Below are positions 11,913 to 15,521 of a stretch of DNA of 64,000 bases, piece by piece. The translations under genes were made by a program, and so were the position numbers. The notes under the pieces were generated by a model. That model did not search any database, was not told the DNA's origin, and worked only from the letters and a program-made list of their open reading frames with translations. Within the stretch, counting starts at the first letter, position 1, and each line of letters opens with the position of its first letter. Origin of the DNA: Reinekea marina (GTDB taxonomy: Bacteria; Pseudomonadota; Gammaproteobacteria; Pseudomonadales; Natronospirillaceae); the NCBI RefSeq assembly GCF_030409715.1, contig NZ_JAUFQI010000001.1:62001-126000 (forward strand), given 5' to 3'.

Positions 11913-12610
11913 AAAAAATCATCATACTAACCGCTGCTTTACTAGTGATTGGGTCTTATTTCTATTTCGATTTAGGTCAATGGCTAACGCTTGAGCAACT
12001 AAAAAGCCAACAAGCCGCGCTCGAAGGGTATCGAGCCAACAACCCAATATTGGTTGCTCTCATTTATATGTTGACCTACATCGTCATTGCCGCACTTTCT
12101 TTACCGGGTTCGGCCATAATGACGCTTAGTGGCGGCGCGATTTTTGGATTAACACTAGGAACAGGGCTTGCTTTAGTCTCCGCAACTATTGGGGCTACAT
12201 TTGCGTTTTTAATCGCCCGATTCTTATTAAAAGATTGGGTACAGACCAAGTTTGGTGATCGTATCGGTGCTATAAACCAAGGCATCAACAAAGATGGCGC
12301 CTTTTACTTATTCAGCCTTCGGCTCGTACCTGTGTTTCCCTTTTTCGTGATCAACGTAGTGATGGGCATCACCACCTTAAAGGTTTGGACTTTTTTCTGG
12401 GTATCTCTCATCGGGATGTTGGCAGGCGCAGCGGTTTACGCAAATGCTGGAACCCAGTTGGCTAAAATAGACAGCTTAGGAGATATTGCCTCGCCCGCTA
12501 TTTTACTATCGTTCGTTTTATTAGGTATCTTCCCGATTCTCGCGAAGAAAATCATCGAGTTTATTCGTCAACGAATGGTTGTTAATACCAATAGCGAACA
12601 ACAAAGTTAA
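11909..12610 (+). CDS. TVP38/TMEM64 (VTT/DedA superfamily) membrane protein
   Basis: Multi-pass inner-membrane protein of 233 aa with 5-6 hydrophobic segments. The VTT signature is visible as SLPGSAIMTLSGGAIFG (about 64-80) and the re-entrant ISxRLVPVFPFFVIN-like FSLRLVPVFPFFVINVVMG (about 134-152). The superfamily includes DedA/YqjA proteins and eukaryotic scramblases; lipid or ion flux roles are proposed for relatives, none specific to this one. Start is GTG overlapping the TGA of DUF547. The 3' end overlaps the convergent PagL-like gene by 29 bases. Confidence 0.9.
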   Translation: MKKIIILTAALLVIGSYFYFDLGQWLTLEQLKSQQAALEGYRANNPILVALIYMLTYIVIAALSLPGSAIMTLSGGAIFGLTLGTGLALVSATIGATFAFLIARFLLKDWVQTKFGDRIGAINQGINKDGAFYLFSLRLVPVFPFFVINVVMGITTLKVWTFFWVSLIGMLAGAAVYANAGTQLAKIDSLGDIASPAILLSFVLLGIFPILAKKIIEFIRQRMVVNTNSEQQS

Positions 12611-13157
12611 AAAAGTTGTATCCATTATTAGGCTTCTTGATATCACCGTTGGATAAATGCTGATATCGAGTGCCTAACTCCCAGTCCCCTAGAGAAACAG
12701 CTAAGCCTAGGACTTCACCAAATTGGAAATGAGTGCTAATTTCACGATCTTGATGTTCTGTTAAACTGAGCCAATTCGCACTCAAACCCGTTTCAAGCGC
12801 AGGCGAACCAGGCAAATTTGCAAACCTCCAAGACAGAACAGGCATAAACCCTAGCTGAACATTTTGGGGCGAAGGGGTTATTTGACCAAATGAAAACTCA
12901 TAATGCCCCGTTAACGAAATGGGTCCAATGGCAGTAATCGTTTCATCCATAGACCACAGCCAAAGCAAGCGGGAACGATCAAAATCACCGTCCGAACCTT
13001 GATCAAACCCAATGCCATCTAACTTCATTGGATTCCAAACTAACAAAGAAGCCACACTCACACCAATCGCACTTTCTCGCCAAGGAAGATCTTGAGCGTA
13101 AATCGATTGCTGCGCAGACGTAAGCAACAAAACAAGCACCAACAAAATTTTTGGCAT
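12582..13157 (-). CDS. PagL-like lipid A 3-O-deacylase (acyloxyacyl hydrolase family)
   Basis: An outer-membrane beta-barrel enzyme of 191 aa that in its family removes the 3-position acyl chain from lipid A. A signal peptide (1-21, cut near IYAQDLP) and alternating hydrophobic strands fit a small barrel. The catalytic segment near the C-terminus reads TRYQHLSNGDIKKPNNGYNF: the His and Ser of the H-x-S pair are present, but the position occupied by the catalytic Glu in Pseudomonas PagL, 14 residues after the His, is Asn here. The protein ends with an aromatic residue (VVRYWY), usual for barrels. Activity is likely but that substitution leaves doubt. Convergent overlap with the VTT gene. Confidence 0.8.
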   Translation of the reverse strand: MPKILLVLVLLLTSAQQSIYAQDLPWRESAIGVSVASLLVWNPMKLDGIGFDQGSDGDFDRSRLLWLWSMDETITAIGPISLTGHYEFSFGQITPSPQNVQLGFMPVLSWRFANLPGSPALETGLSANWLSLTEHQDREISTHFQFGEVLGLAVSLGDWELGTRYQHLSNGDIKKPNNGYNFFNFVVRYWY

Positions 13158-13246: not shown

Positions 13247-13303
13247 GCTGCGAGTAAAGTCACAACACTAGAACAATCGCGTCTTCGCTTTGCTTCGAGC
13301 GCT
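13247..13303. repeat. Truncated tail of a repeat unit left of the insertion sequence
   Basis: These 57 bases align with the last part of the array units: gctgcgagtaaagtcacaac, actagaacaa and the complete 27-bp motif (13277-13303) ending in gcgct. They are joined directly to the left end of the insertion element, so before insertion they continued into the unit now starting at 14691. Confidence 0.85.
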
Positions 13304-13306
13304 TAT

Positions 13307-13318
13307 ATGGACCCGTCC
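13307..13318. repeat. Subterminal inverted repeat, transposase-downstream end
   Basis: ATGGACCCGTCC, 3 bp inside the element edge. It is the exact reverse complement of 14672-14683. Confidence 0.9.
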
Positions 13319-13586
13319 GTTGTTGCAAGCCACTTATTTTACATTAGATTGAGATTGCACGCTTATATTCGGCTTCTTATTTAGGACGGCCGTCGCCTTC
13401 TGTCCTGAGCCATTATGAGTTGTGCTCTTACTGTCCTGATCTCCTACGCGGCTTCTTTGAGCCAAAGCGCTCTCAAGGGTTCAGTAAGTCGATCTTATCT
13501 TTTGTGTCTTAAGGGTCTGCGCAACCTCTAGGTTAATCTGATTTATAACTTCTAACTTACCTTGCTGGTTCTTTTTCTCTTTTGAC
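13319..13586 (-). ncRNA. Candidate guide RNA region (bridge/seek RNA) of the IS element
   Basis: In IS1111-group elements a structured RNA encoded between the transposase stop and the element end guides target choice. This stretch is that region. It holds two short matches to the target junction gagcgct|cttactttg: GCTCTTACT at 13424-13432 (nine bases spanning the junction into the right half) and AGCGCTCT at 13466-13473 (eight bases spanning it from the left). AGCGCT is itself palindromic, so the second match works on either strand. Structure elements are present: the palindrome GACGGCCGTC (13385-13394) inside an AGGAC/GTCCT helix, and a repeated CTGTCCTGA at 13400-13408 and 13431-13439. Boundaries and strand of the RNA are not determinable by eye. 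Confidence 0.5.
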
Positions 13587-14606
13587 TTAAGAGTGGTATA
13601 CCGAACCATTTTTCATCAGTGCCCAACTGATTCTGGCGAGCTTATTCGCGAGTGCCACGATGATGACATTGGGATGCTTGTTCCCTTCGTGCTTCATCAC
13701 CCATTGCTTTAGAGCACTGTCTTTTTCCTGCCGCTGCAAGGATTTATAAGCCGACCTCGCGCCATGCACCAGCATCTTACGGATCTGTTTATTGCCTTGT
13801 TTACTAATGCCAAGCAAGACATCTTTCCCTCCGCTGGAGTGCTGTCTGGGAACCAACCCCAGTGAAGCACTGACATGACGACCACTGGCAAACGATGCAG
13901 CCTTGCCAATGTGACTGTAGAGAAGCGTTGAGATGATTGGACCGATACCCGGTATGCTTTGAAGACGCTTACAGGTTTCATTTGAGTTGGCGATCTGCGC
14001 GATTTCTTTGGCGTATTGCTGCTCTTGCTGTTCGCGTTGCAACCACTGCTGCCTGAGGTCGGCTATCATTCGCCGACCTCGAACGCTGAGCTCATTCGTT
14101 CCATCCTCTAACACCAATAACACCTGCTCACGGATAGCTTTTGCACCCTTAGGAAGAATGACTCCATATTCAGCCAACAGACCTCGGAGCTCATTGCCTA
14201 CGGCAACACGCTCTTTCACTATACGCTCCCGAACACGATGCAACGCCTGAAGATCTTGTTGCTCAACATTTTTTACAGCAACGGTCGGCATGGTTGGTCG
14301 ACTCGCTGCTTCAGCGATGCCAAGAGCATCCCTGGTGTCATTTTTGTTCACCTGAACGAAGGGTTTAACGTAACGAGGGTGTATAACTTTAACGGTGTGA
14401 CCGAGCTTAGCCAACTGCCTAGCCCAGTAATGGGATCCGCTGCAAGCTTCCATAGCGACGACAGATGTTGGCTGCTTCGCAAGAAAAGGCAACACTTGAG
14501 CACGCTTGAGCTGCTTCTTTTTAATCTCATTGCCGCGATGATCTAACACAGACAATTGAAAAACAGACTTCGCCAAATCAAGACCGATAATGTTAGTATT
14601 TTGCAT
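13587..14606 (-). CDS. IS110-family transposase (DEDD recombinase, IS1111 group)
   Basis: A 339-aa transposase. The N-terminal RuvC-like DEDD domain shows IIGLDLAKSVFQL (Asp 9), VVAMEACSGSHYWAR (Glu), and NDTRDALGIAEAA with the last two Asp. The C-terminal Tnp_20 domain has the helix-hairpin SIPGIGPIISTLL and the segment ASLGLVPRQHSSGGK with the nearby conserved Ser residues, followed by LLGISKQGNKQIRKML. Length is normal for the group. The frame stays open 27 codons upstream, into the element end, but GGAGG lies 7 bases before this ATG. No internal stop or shift is seen. Confidence 0.95.
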   Translation of the reverse strand: MQNTNIIGLDLAKSVFQLSVLDHRGNEIKKKQLKRAQVLPFLAKQPTSVVAMEACSGSHYWARQLAKLGHTVKVIHPRYVKPFVQVNKNDTRDALGIAEAASRPTMPTVAVKNVEQQDLQALHRVRERIVKERVAVGNELRGLLAEYGVILPKGAKAIREQVLLVLEDGTNELSVRGRRMIADLRQQWLQREQQEQQYAKEIAQIANSNETCKRLQSIPGIGPIISTLLYSHIGKAASFASGRHVSASLGLVPRQHSSGGKDVLLGISKQGNKQIRKMLVHGARSAYKSLQRQEKDSALKQWVMKHEGNKHPNVIIVALANKLARISWALMKNGSVYHS

Positions 14607-14671
14607 GATGGATCCTCCTGCTGGATGCCGTACCTGATTAGAGTTTTGCAACTTAATCATGGCACAAGTGG

Positions 14672-14683
14672 GACGGGTCCATC
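14672..14683. repeat. Subterminal inverted repeat, transposase-upstream end
   Basis: GGACGGGTCCAT, 7 bp inside the right edge of the element; exact reverse complement of 13307-13318. Confidence 0.9.
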
Positions 14684-14690
14684 TCATTTC

Positions 14691-15431
14691 TTACTTTGTC
14701 TTGGCGCTGATGATTAGCTTTGGTGGTGGGTTTCGCTGGAATGGACATCTGAGTCATGGATGGCGAAGTTGAGCGGCGCAGGATGCGCGAACAGCGACCC
14801 ATGTAAGTGGAACACACTGCCGATGCGGGTTAAGCCGGTTTTAGGCCGCGGGGGTTTTAGCTGCAAGTTTCAAGCTGCAAGCTGCAAGCTGCAAGTAAAT
14901 TCACAACATTAGAACAATCGCGTCTTCGCTTTGCTTCGAGCGCTCTTACTTTGTCTTGGCGCTGATGATTAGCTTTGGTGGTGGGTTTCGCTGGAATGGG
15001 CATCTGAGCCATGGGTGGCGAAGTTGAGCGGCGCAGGATGCGCGAACAGCGACCCATGTAAGTGGAACACACTGCCGATGCGGGTTAAGCCGGTTTTAGG
15101 CCGCGGGGGGTTTAGCTGCAAGTTTCAAGCTGCAAGCTGCAAGTAAATTCACAACATTAGAACAATCGCGTCTTCGCTTTGCTTCGAGCGCTCTTACTTT
15201 GTCTTGGCGCTGATGATTAGCTTTGGTGGTGGGTTTCGCTGGAATGGGCATCTGAGTCATGGATGGCGAAGTTGAGCGGCGCAGGATGCGCGAACAGCGA
15301 CCCATGTAAGTGGAACACACTGCCGATGCGGGTTAAGCCGGTTTTAGGCCGCGGGGGTTTTAGCTGCAAGTTTCAAGCTGCAAGCTGCAAGTAAAGTCAA
15401 AACATTTAAGCTATCGCGTCTTCGCTTTGCT
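14691..15431. repeat. Tandem array of three ~250-bp units
   Basis: Units occupy 14691-14944 (254 bp), 14945-15192 (248 bp) and 15193-15431 (239 bp, cut inside its final motif). They are nearly identical: the length change comes from one extra GCTGCAA heptamer in unit 1 and one extra G in unit 2, plus a few A/G and T/C changes. Each unit has a core with a small GCGCA-GGA-TGCGC hairpin, a GCTGCAAG microsatellite, and ends with the 27-bp motif tcgcgtcttcgctttgct + tcgagcgct. A unit tail also precedes the IS at 13247-13303. Short minus-strand reading frames recur in each unit, but they are cut by the array and look like by-products. I see no protein gene here; function unknown. Confidence 0.9.
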
Positions 15432-15521
15432 TTTTATTGCAATACTAAGTTGAAGGTTTCGGGGTTCGCGCGACCTTGAAACTTAGGTATACTCACTTTA
15501 GATTTTTTGTAGAGAAGCACC

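Follow-up and report, generated by a model that had tools for sequence, protein, structure and literature searches.

A probable two-loop bridge RNA encoded 3' of the transposase gene in an IS1111 insertion sequence of Reinekea marina

Results

The insertion sequence, its ends and its transposase

The window analysed here, 64,000 nucleotides of Reinekea marina contig NZ_JAUFQI010000001.1 (positions 62,001 to 126,000, forward strand), was found to contain an insertion sequence of 1386 bp at 13304–14689 on the minus strand, which belongs to the IS1111 group of the IS110 family. The genome carries four near-identical 1386-bp copies with identical ends. The transposase gene (13587–14606, minus strand) encodes a protein of 339 aa with a RuvC-like DEDD and a Tnp domain; the open reading frame listed by the program begins at an ATG upstream of this start. 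Pfam matches to PF01548 (E = 5.7e-20) and PF02371 (E = 9.9e-21) showed that the DEDD RuvC and Transposase_20 domains of the IS110 family were both present. They confirmed the first-pass annotation: the region under study is non-coding DNA that lies 3' of a transposase gene of the IS110/IS1111 type, encoded on the minus strand. Among 23 relatives, D10, E53, D90 and D93 were invariant and S258 was nearly invariant. The protein also matched an IS621/ISCro4 profile, in which the DEDD residues of the IS621 and ISCro4 chains aligned with the four invariant residues (with a two-residue chain offset) and the catalytic serine S241 of IS621 aligned with S258; the RuvC part of this alignment was weak alone (domain E of 0.014 and 0.079). 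The catalytic serine of IS621 is described in PMC11208158.

The IS1111 layout described in PMC11187229 consists of subterminal inverted repeats with extensions of 7 bp on the left and 3 bp on the right. The corresponding parts of the window element, all read on the minus strand, were the left terminal extension AAATGAG (14683–14689), the left subterminal inverted repeat ATGGACCCGTCC (14671–14682), the right subterminal inverted repeat GGACGGGTCCAT (13307–13318) and the right terminal extension ATA (13304–13306). The two repeats were located by repeat search and copy comparison and were perfect, with 12/12 bp paired; subterminal inverted repeats of 11–13 bp with these extensions are a mark of the IS1111 group. 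The ends at 14689 and 13304 were set by applying the published 7/3-bp rule to these repeats, and they agreed with the flanks of the four copies. Among the delineated relatives, ATA was the commonest right extension. A further IS1111 feature was the long non-coding region 3' of the transposase gene, 283 bp compared with 83 bp on the 5' side (14607–14689).

The left target half (LF) GTAAG at 14690–14694 and the right target half (RF) AGCGCTC at 13297–13303, both on the minus strand, were obtained from the four copies and, for the right half, also from comparison with the conspecific genome G162. This genome has the same locus without the element; the collinear match ended where the right flank begins, at 13303, and the repeat array at that locus differed in detail from the array of the window. 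The insertion sites of the four copies were GTAAG^AGCGCTC (window), GTAGG^AGCGCTC, GTAGG^AGCGATC and GTAGG^AGTGATT. Thus, all four copies lay at GTARG^AG in a single orientation relative to the site, and together with the empty locus of G162 they indicated site- and orientation-specific insertion with no target duplication, as expected for IS1111. The element is adjoined by a gene (12582–13157, minus strand) that encodes a PagL lipid A 3-O-deacylase domain (PF09411) and whose 3' end overlaps the 3' end of a convergent VTT-domain gene by 29 bp.

Relatives used for comparison

Relatives were collected from the same genome, from searches at the order, class and family levels, from viral contigs and from Marinobacterium mangrovicola, which gave the only relative (63%) in a single-protein scan of genome contigs; plasmid tblastn matches were left out of the element set. 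Of the loci with transposase hits, nine had flanks too short for use and 117 were kept, several of which were repeated fetches of one place. Of these, 94 were delineated, giving 80 distinct insertions and 53 element clusters. Because the delineation pattern took the 7/3-bp rule as given and demanded a left extension with (A/T)TG, it lost elements of any other build, and the 7/3 layout is not an independent result of this step; a free repeat search showed the layout without the (A/T)TG requirement. In the aligned covariation and control tests the window element was represented by copy L002 (at GTAGG^AGCGCTC) and the second IS1111 element of this genome (described below) by L083. The unconstrained and spacing-constrained searches used the less favourable L001 and L074, and the shared-word statistics used L001 and L083.

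A conserved RNA structure in the 3' non-coding region

The 3' non-coding region encodes a predicted, conserved two-domain bridge RNA (long seekRNA). A covariance model, the training set of which left out the window element and L037, gave one match in the window at E up to 1, located at 13351–13496 on the minus strand with 77 bits and E = 1.3e-21. The same model matched 43 of 46 further IS-bearing loci, missing L058, L062 and L065, and none of the six loci that held the repeat without a transposase hit. Of these 46 loci, L068 is a copy of one element used for training, and the rest show various degrees of relatedness to the training elements. Alignment to the model placed 52 of the 53 elements, L065 not being found. 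A search of Rfam gave no match above the gathering score within the window.

The consensus structure contained 22 pairs, and 96.4% of its cells were paired. Stem 1 is formed by a 5' arm CUUACUG (13482–13488) and a 3' arm CAGUAAG (13427–13433), and changes on both sides were observed at all eight pairs of this helix in 24 elements, which were chosen by us for having the RNA at the usual distance from the element end. An inner hairpin GGC...GCC (13450–13463; helix 3, two consensus pairs) closes the putative target-binding loop. In the second domain, GGCU (13408–13411) pairs with AGCC (13371–13374) to form the stem of the putative donor loop (helix 5), which encloses a hairpin within 13371–13411. 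All these features are on the minus strand. The first-pass annotation had called for covariance folding across homologues, and a conserved structure was indeed obtained: there were 93 double-changed cells, compared with 24.6 in shuffles and 10–20 when the partners were slid. When folded alone, the RNA of the window element was barely better than shuffled sequences (z of -1.44, with 19 of 200 shuffles as good). This single-sequence fold was unremarkable, and the evidence for the structure is comparative.

Two guides for the target

The target-binding loop was predicted to contain two guides on the minus strand. The T guide GAGCGCU (13466–13472) is complementary to the right target half, RF+1 to RF+7, on the top strand; the B guide GUAGGAG (GTAGGAG as DNA, 13447–13441) represents the left target half plus the core, LF-5 to RF+2, and addresses the bottom strand. 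The top-strand complement lies 5' of the bottom-strand complement and the two overlap at the core, which is the arrangement of seekRNAs. A guide search was made for a 7-letter T complementary to RF+1..+7 located 22–30 nt 5' of a B equal to LF-5..RF+2. The mean score of elements against their own targets was 12.11 out of 14; shuffled targets gave 9.59 (sd 0.12) and did not exceed 10.08 in any of 20,000 shuffles. When the 53 targets were ranked for each element, its own came first in 39 of the 53 elements if ties were allowed, and in only 26 if they were not.

In position-by-position maps of the aligned elements, positions 13447 to 13441 followed LF-5 to RF+2, with 36–49 of 52 elements matched against 12.7–33.7 expected, and positions 13472 to 13466 followed RF+7 to RF+1, with 28–43 of 52 matched against 13.0–29.5 expected; none of 2000 shuffles reached the observed value at any of these positions. 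The weakest T position was RF+7, which was reached in 34 of 1000 map-wide null maps. Summed over 52 elements, the B guide matched at 322 of 364 positions (mean of 300 shuffles 132, maximum 155), and the T guide (RF+1..+6) at 239 of 312 (mean of 300 shuffles 112, maximum 131). Relatedness was controlled for by comparing each element with its nearest relative that has a different target. The own target was the better fit in 50 of 52 elements, which fell into 35 target classes, with means of 10.79 and 5.85 out of 13; L067 and L046 were the two elements against the guide–target match.

Among the four insertion sites of the element, the B guide was exact at three. The one mismatch at the site in the window was a wobble of a guide G with a target T. 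The T guide was matched at only 4/7 in copy L003/L018. Wobble pairs made up 0.29 of the non-Watson–Crick guide positions for B (compared with 0.18) and 0.18 for T (compared with 0.19), and a general enrichment of wobble pairs is not claimed because T showed none. It was also observed that L126, which is in the same cluster of non-coding regions as L123 (with L129–L131), had a different T guide and a different target; L126 and L123 are a possible natural reprogramming pair.

As to the first-pass annotation, it had proposed a guide RNA matching both target halves, with AGCGCTCT (13466–13473) and GCTCTTACT (13424–13432) as its segments. Both strings were located as claimed. The general idea and the first segment were borne out, since AGCGCTCT contains the T guide, which covaries with the target; GCTCTTACT did not behave as a guide, as discussed below. 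We conclude that the target half of the explanation, in which T and B guides lie in a target-binding loop held by a covarying stem, is almost certainly correct as a reading of the compared sequences.

Two strands that follow the ends of the element

In the 3' half of the RNA, two further variable strands flank the second stem (GGCU with AGCC). Donor guide 1, CUCAU (13415–13419, minus strand), is complementary to LE+3..+7 of the left end (ATGAG), and donor guide 2, AUAUAAG (13362–13368, minus strand), matches the right end ATATA plus the core AG. For donor guide 1, the map gave 44 of 52 elements matched at LE+6 (24.6 expected) and 38 of 52 at LE+7 (21.2 expected). For donor guide 2, matches were found in 50 of 52 elements at RE-2 (22.5 expected), 48 at RF+1 (28.3 expected) and 48 at RF+2 (34.1 expected). 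The summed matches were 186 of 208 for LE+4..+7 of donor guide 1 (maximum of 300 shuffles 163) and 349 of 364 for donor guide 2 (maximum of 300 shuffles 291).

The summed donor columns were picked from the same data; hence, three controls were added. The map-wide null comprised 10,608 comparisons; the value at LE+6 was reached in 9 of 1000 maps, that at LE+7 in 10 of 1000 and that at RE-2 in none. With no columns selected, the region around the left-end strand scored 5.48 out of 7 against the element's own end, compared with at most 5.19 in 1000 shuffles, and that around the right-end strand scored 6.79 out of 7, compared with at most 5.67. Relative to the end of the nearest different-end relative, the own end was the better fit to the left-end strand in 41 of 52 elements, with 1 tie and 10 worse, and to the right-end strand in 50 of 52, with 1 tie and 1 worse. 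In an earlier and cruder alignment, the left-end z values were 5.4 and 4.7, below the largest null value of 7.14 (mean 4.79). The left-end donor covariation is the weakest part of the explanation. By comparative evidence, then, the RNA has the right-end complementarity expected of the donor loop of a bridge RNA and, less strongly, the left-end complementarity.

The core letters of the two loops agreed in 45 of 52 elements, where 17.4 were expected, and in the window element they were AG in both. The donor-loop core fitted the target core at 96 of 104 positions and the left-end bases at 67 of 104 (with 24 more G–T wobbles). The left end equalled the target at the first core base in 49 of 52 elements and at the second in only 19, differing in 33. 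The donor core guide therefore fitted the integrated right-end/target junction better than the right-end/left-end bases of the circle. It was also noted in the first-pass annotation that CGCTTATAT at 13360–13368 repeats the junction of flank and element at 13300–13308. Both positions were correct and the repeat is real, being the donor guide for right end and core except for its last two letters: RF+3 was weakly supported (25 of 52 elements, 12.9 expected) and RF+4 was not among the 48 best positions. The role of this third repeat in a donor-binding loop is what that annotation missed.

The host repeat and a second IS1111 element

Both flanks of all four copies matched a repeat family with a unit of 225–250 bp, some of the matches being short. 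This tandem and dispersed repeat was observed at 14690–15460 of the window and at dozens of places in genomes G000 and G162. With at most one mismatch, GTARGAGCGMTCGAAG had 30 occurrences in this genome and 31 in G162, all unfilled, and reversed GTARGAGCGMTCGAAG occurred in neither genome at the same threshold. By its diaminopimelate decarboxylase (86% to Reinekea sp.), this host is placed near Reinekea.

Two different IS1111 elements have their targets in this repeat family. The second element in the same genome has a transposase with 46% identity and five copies (L074 and L083–L086), four of which lie in another part of the same repeats, at GCATGGA^TGCGCG or, in one case, GCATGGA^TGCACG. For the site it occupies, its guides matched at T 6/7 and B 7/7; they did not fit the site of the first element (T 4/7, B 2–3/7). 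The fifth copy, L074, lies outside the repeat family and scored 10/14, elsewhere in the RNA; on visual inspection, its site agrees with the B guide in the left half (ATGGA) only. The sites occupied by the related elements L034, L042, L043 and L045 were ACAAA^TGTTA- or TAAAA^TGTTA-like and may resemble one end of attC sites.

Discussion

The insertion sequence in the window is very probably an IS1111 element with a two-loop bridge RNA (long seekRNA) that contains both a target-binding and a donor-binding loop. In the former, the T guide GAGCGCU would lie 5' of the B guide GUAGGAG, held by the covarying stem; in the latter, the two strands would read, respectively, the left end and the right end together with the core dinucleotide. 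Experiments on related elements suggest how these parts may work. In these relatives, a promoter arises where the ends are joined in the circle, and the transposase binds the RNA, which is required for movement and sets the target (PMC11187229). For IS621, two loops, a shared core and serine-linked strand exchange were demonstrated (PMC11208160, PMC11208158). By analogy, a circle with joined ends would create a promoter from which transposase and RNA are transcribed, the two would hold the circle and a GTARG^AGCG site together, and the RuvC and serine active sites would exchange strands at the core. Because strand exchange would take place at the core, the element would enter in one orientation with no target duplication. 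Expression, RNA binding and movement of the window element itself are what we infer from these relatives. A promoter-like sequence is present: TTGCAA (13323–13328, minus strand) resembles a -35 box and lies 17 bp from the -10-like TAAAAT that would be formed across the circle junction. Of 53 elements, 38 had TTG at 17 bp and 13 more had it at 15, 16 or 18 bp.

Which segments serve as target guides had been answered differently in the first-pass annotation, namely by GCTCTTACT together with AGCGCTCT. The matches of nine and eight bases to the target of the window element are exact, and our unconstrained best-match search likewise picked AGTAAGAGC, taking the same wrong B segment, which was overturned by the alignment, the spacing test and the column test. 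The lengths of the matches had been offered as joint evidence. To gauge chance, 53 element regions were compared on either strand with the 20-bp targets of other elements (2756 foreign pairs). An exact shared word of at least 9 was found in 2.2% of the pairs and of at least 8 in 8.7%, so that each match alone is weak; these rates are somewhat high, as some pairs have similar targets. As RNA, GCTCTTACT reads AGUAAGAGC, and its AGUAAG lies within the 3' arm of stem 1, so that most of the segment is scaffold with compensatory changes. Its nine columns did not covary with the target, matching their own targets 148 times, compared with 144.3 expected (sd 7.7). It fits the single copy at GTAAG, whereas three of four copies sit at GTAGG, and it starts 40 nt from T, compared with 20–31 nt in the same order in 28 of 53 elements (unconstrained search, counted by hand). 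The true B guide GTAGGAG begins 15 nt upstream of it. The nine-base match is coincidental, and a pair of guides that includes it is hardly credible. A stem arm may resemble the target by chance, and even an exact nine-base match can mislead.

The two-loop reading with T and B guides has then to be set against views that dispense with the donor loop or with the RNA altogether. It might be supposed that the RNA picks only the target, that recognition of the ends is left to the transposase protein alone, and that the 3' domain is not needed. An 82-nt seekRNA of ISEc11 supported transposition (PMC11187229), a form which, from its length alone, would be without the 3' loop, and the long inverted repeats of IS1111 could be bound by protein. 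This supposition does not account for a conserved second loop whose strands follow the right and left ends in 52 elements, nor for the agreement of its core with that of the target loop far above chance, and we consider it unlikely. Alternatively, the region might be conserved as DNA, as repeated transposase binding sites. The donor matches repeat end sequences that a DNA-binding protein could use, and they could in principle arise from such protein-bound repeats. However, the compensatory base-pair changes of stem 1 are a prediction of RNA pairing, and guides for both strands of many targets at similar spacing are hard to obtain from protein-bound DNA repeats; a role without RNA is therefore very improbable. 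As for the donor loop itself, the proposal that the 3' half of the IS1111 long seekRNA is a true donor-binding loop, with the left terminal extension read by one strand and the right end plus target core by the other, seems to us evenly balanced on the present comparison. If it is true, the asymmetry at the second core base might bias insertion against excision.

Judged by its features, guide order and ends, which agree, the element belongs to the IS1111 seekRNA/bridge RNA family. Like ISEc11, ISKpn4, ISPst6 and ISPa11 (PMC11187229), it has its non-coding region 3' of the transposase gene, 7/3-bp extensions and subterminal inverted repeats, makes no target duplication, and places the top-strand complement 5' of the bottom-strand complement with overlapping target matches. 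It differs from them in its targets and in that the 3' part of its RNA would, by covariation, read the element ends. As with ISPa11 and ISKpn4, which enter REP or attC sites (PMC11187229), the target lies within a repeated chromosomal sequence, in this case a unit of 225–250 bp. Similarities to the IS621 bridge RNA of the IS110 group (PMC11208160, PMC11208158) were two loops with two guides each, a shared core dinucleotide and a related recombinase with RuvC-DEDD and Tnp-serine parts. In contrast to IS621, the RNA is at the other element end, the order of the target guides is reversed, the inverted repeats are long, and the second core base of the left end often differs from that of the target.

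Two 2024 papers differ on the donor-binding loop of IS1111 elements. PMC11187229 states that the short seekRNA is sufficient for ISEc11 and that the function of the long form has still to be determined. PMC11208160 predicts a bridge RNA in 93.0% of the IS1111 elements of ISfinder, mostly at the right end, and describes potential donor-binding nucleotides, noted when six IS110 and IS1111 elements were inspected by hand; the donor guides here were instead tested by covariation in 52 elements. Among published, mostly open-access papers searched by title and opening abstract lines, no systematic study of donor-loop covariation in IS1111 was found. The covariation supports a donor loop in the elements compared here, and the experimental result for ISEc11 (PMC11187229) still stands. 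The main value of the present analysis lies in this comparative evidence for an IS1111 donor-binding loop. The map of 52 elements assigns putative guide positions for the target and for both ends down to exact bases, in a family of RNA-guided IS110/IS1111 recombinases that are candidates for programmable DNA insertion.
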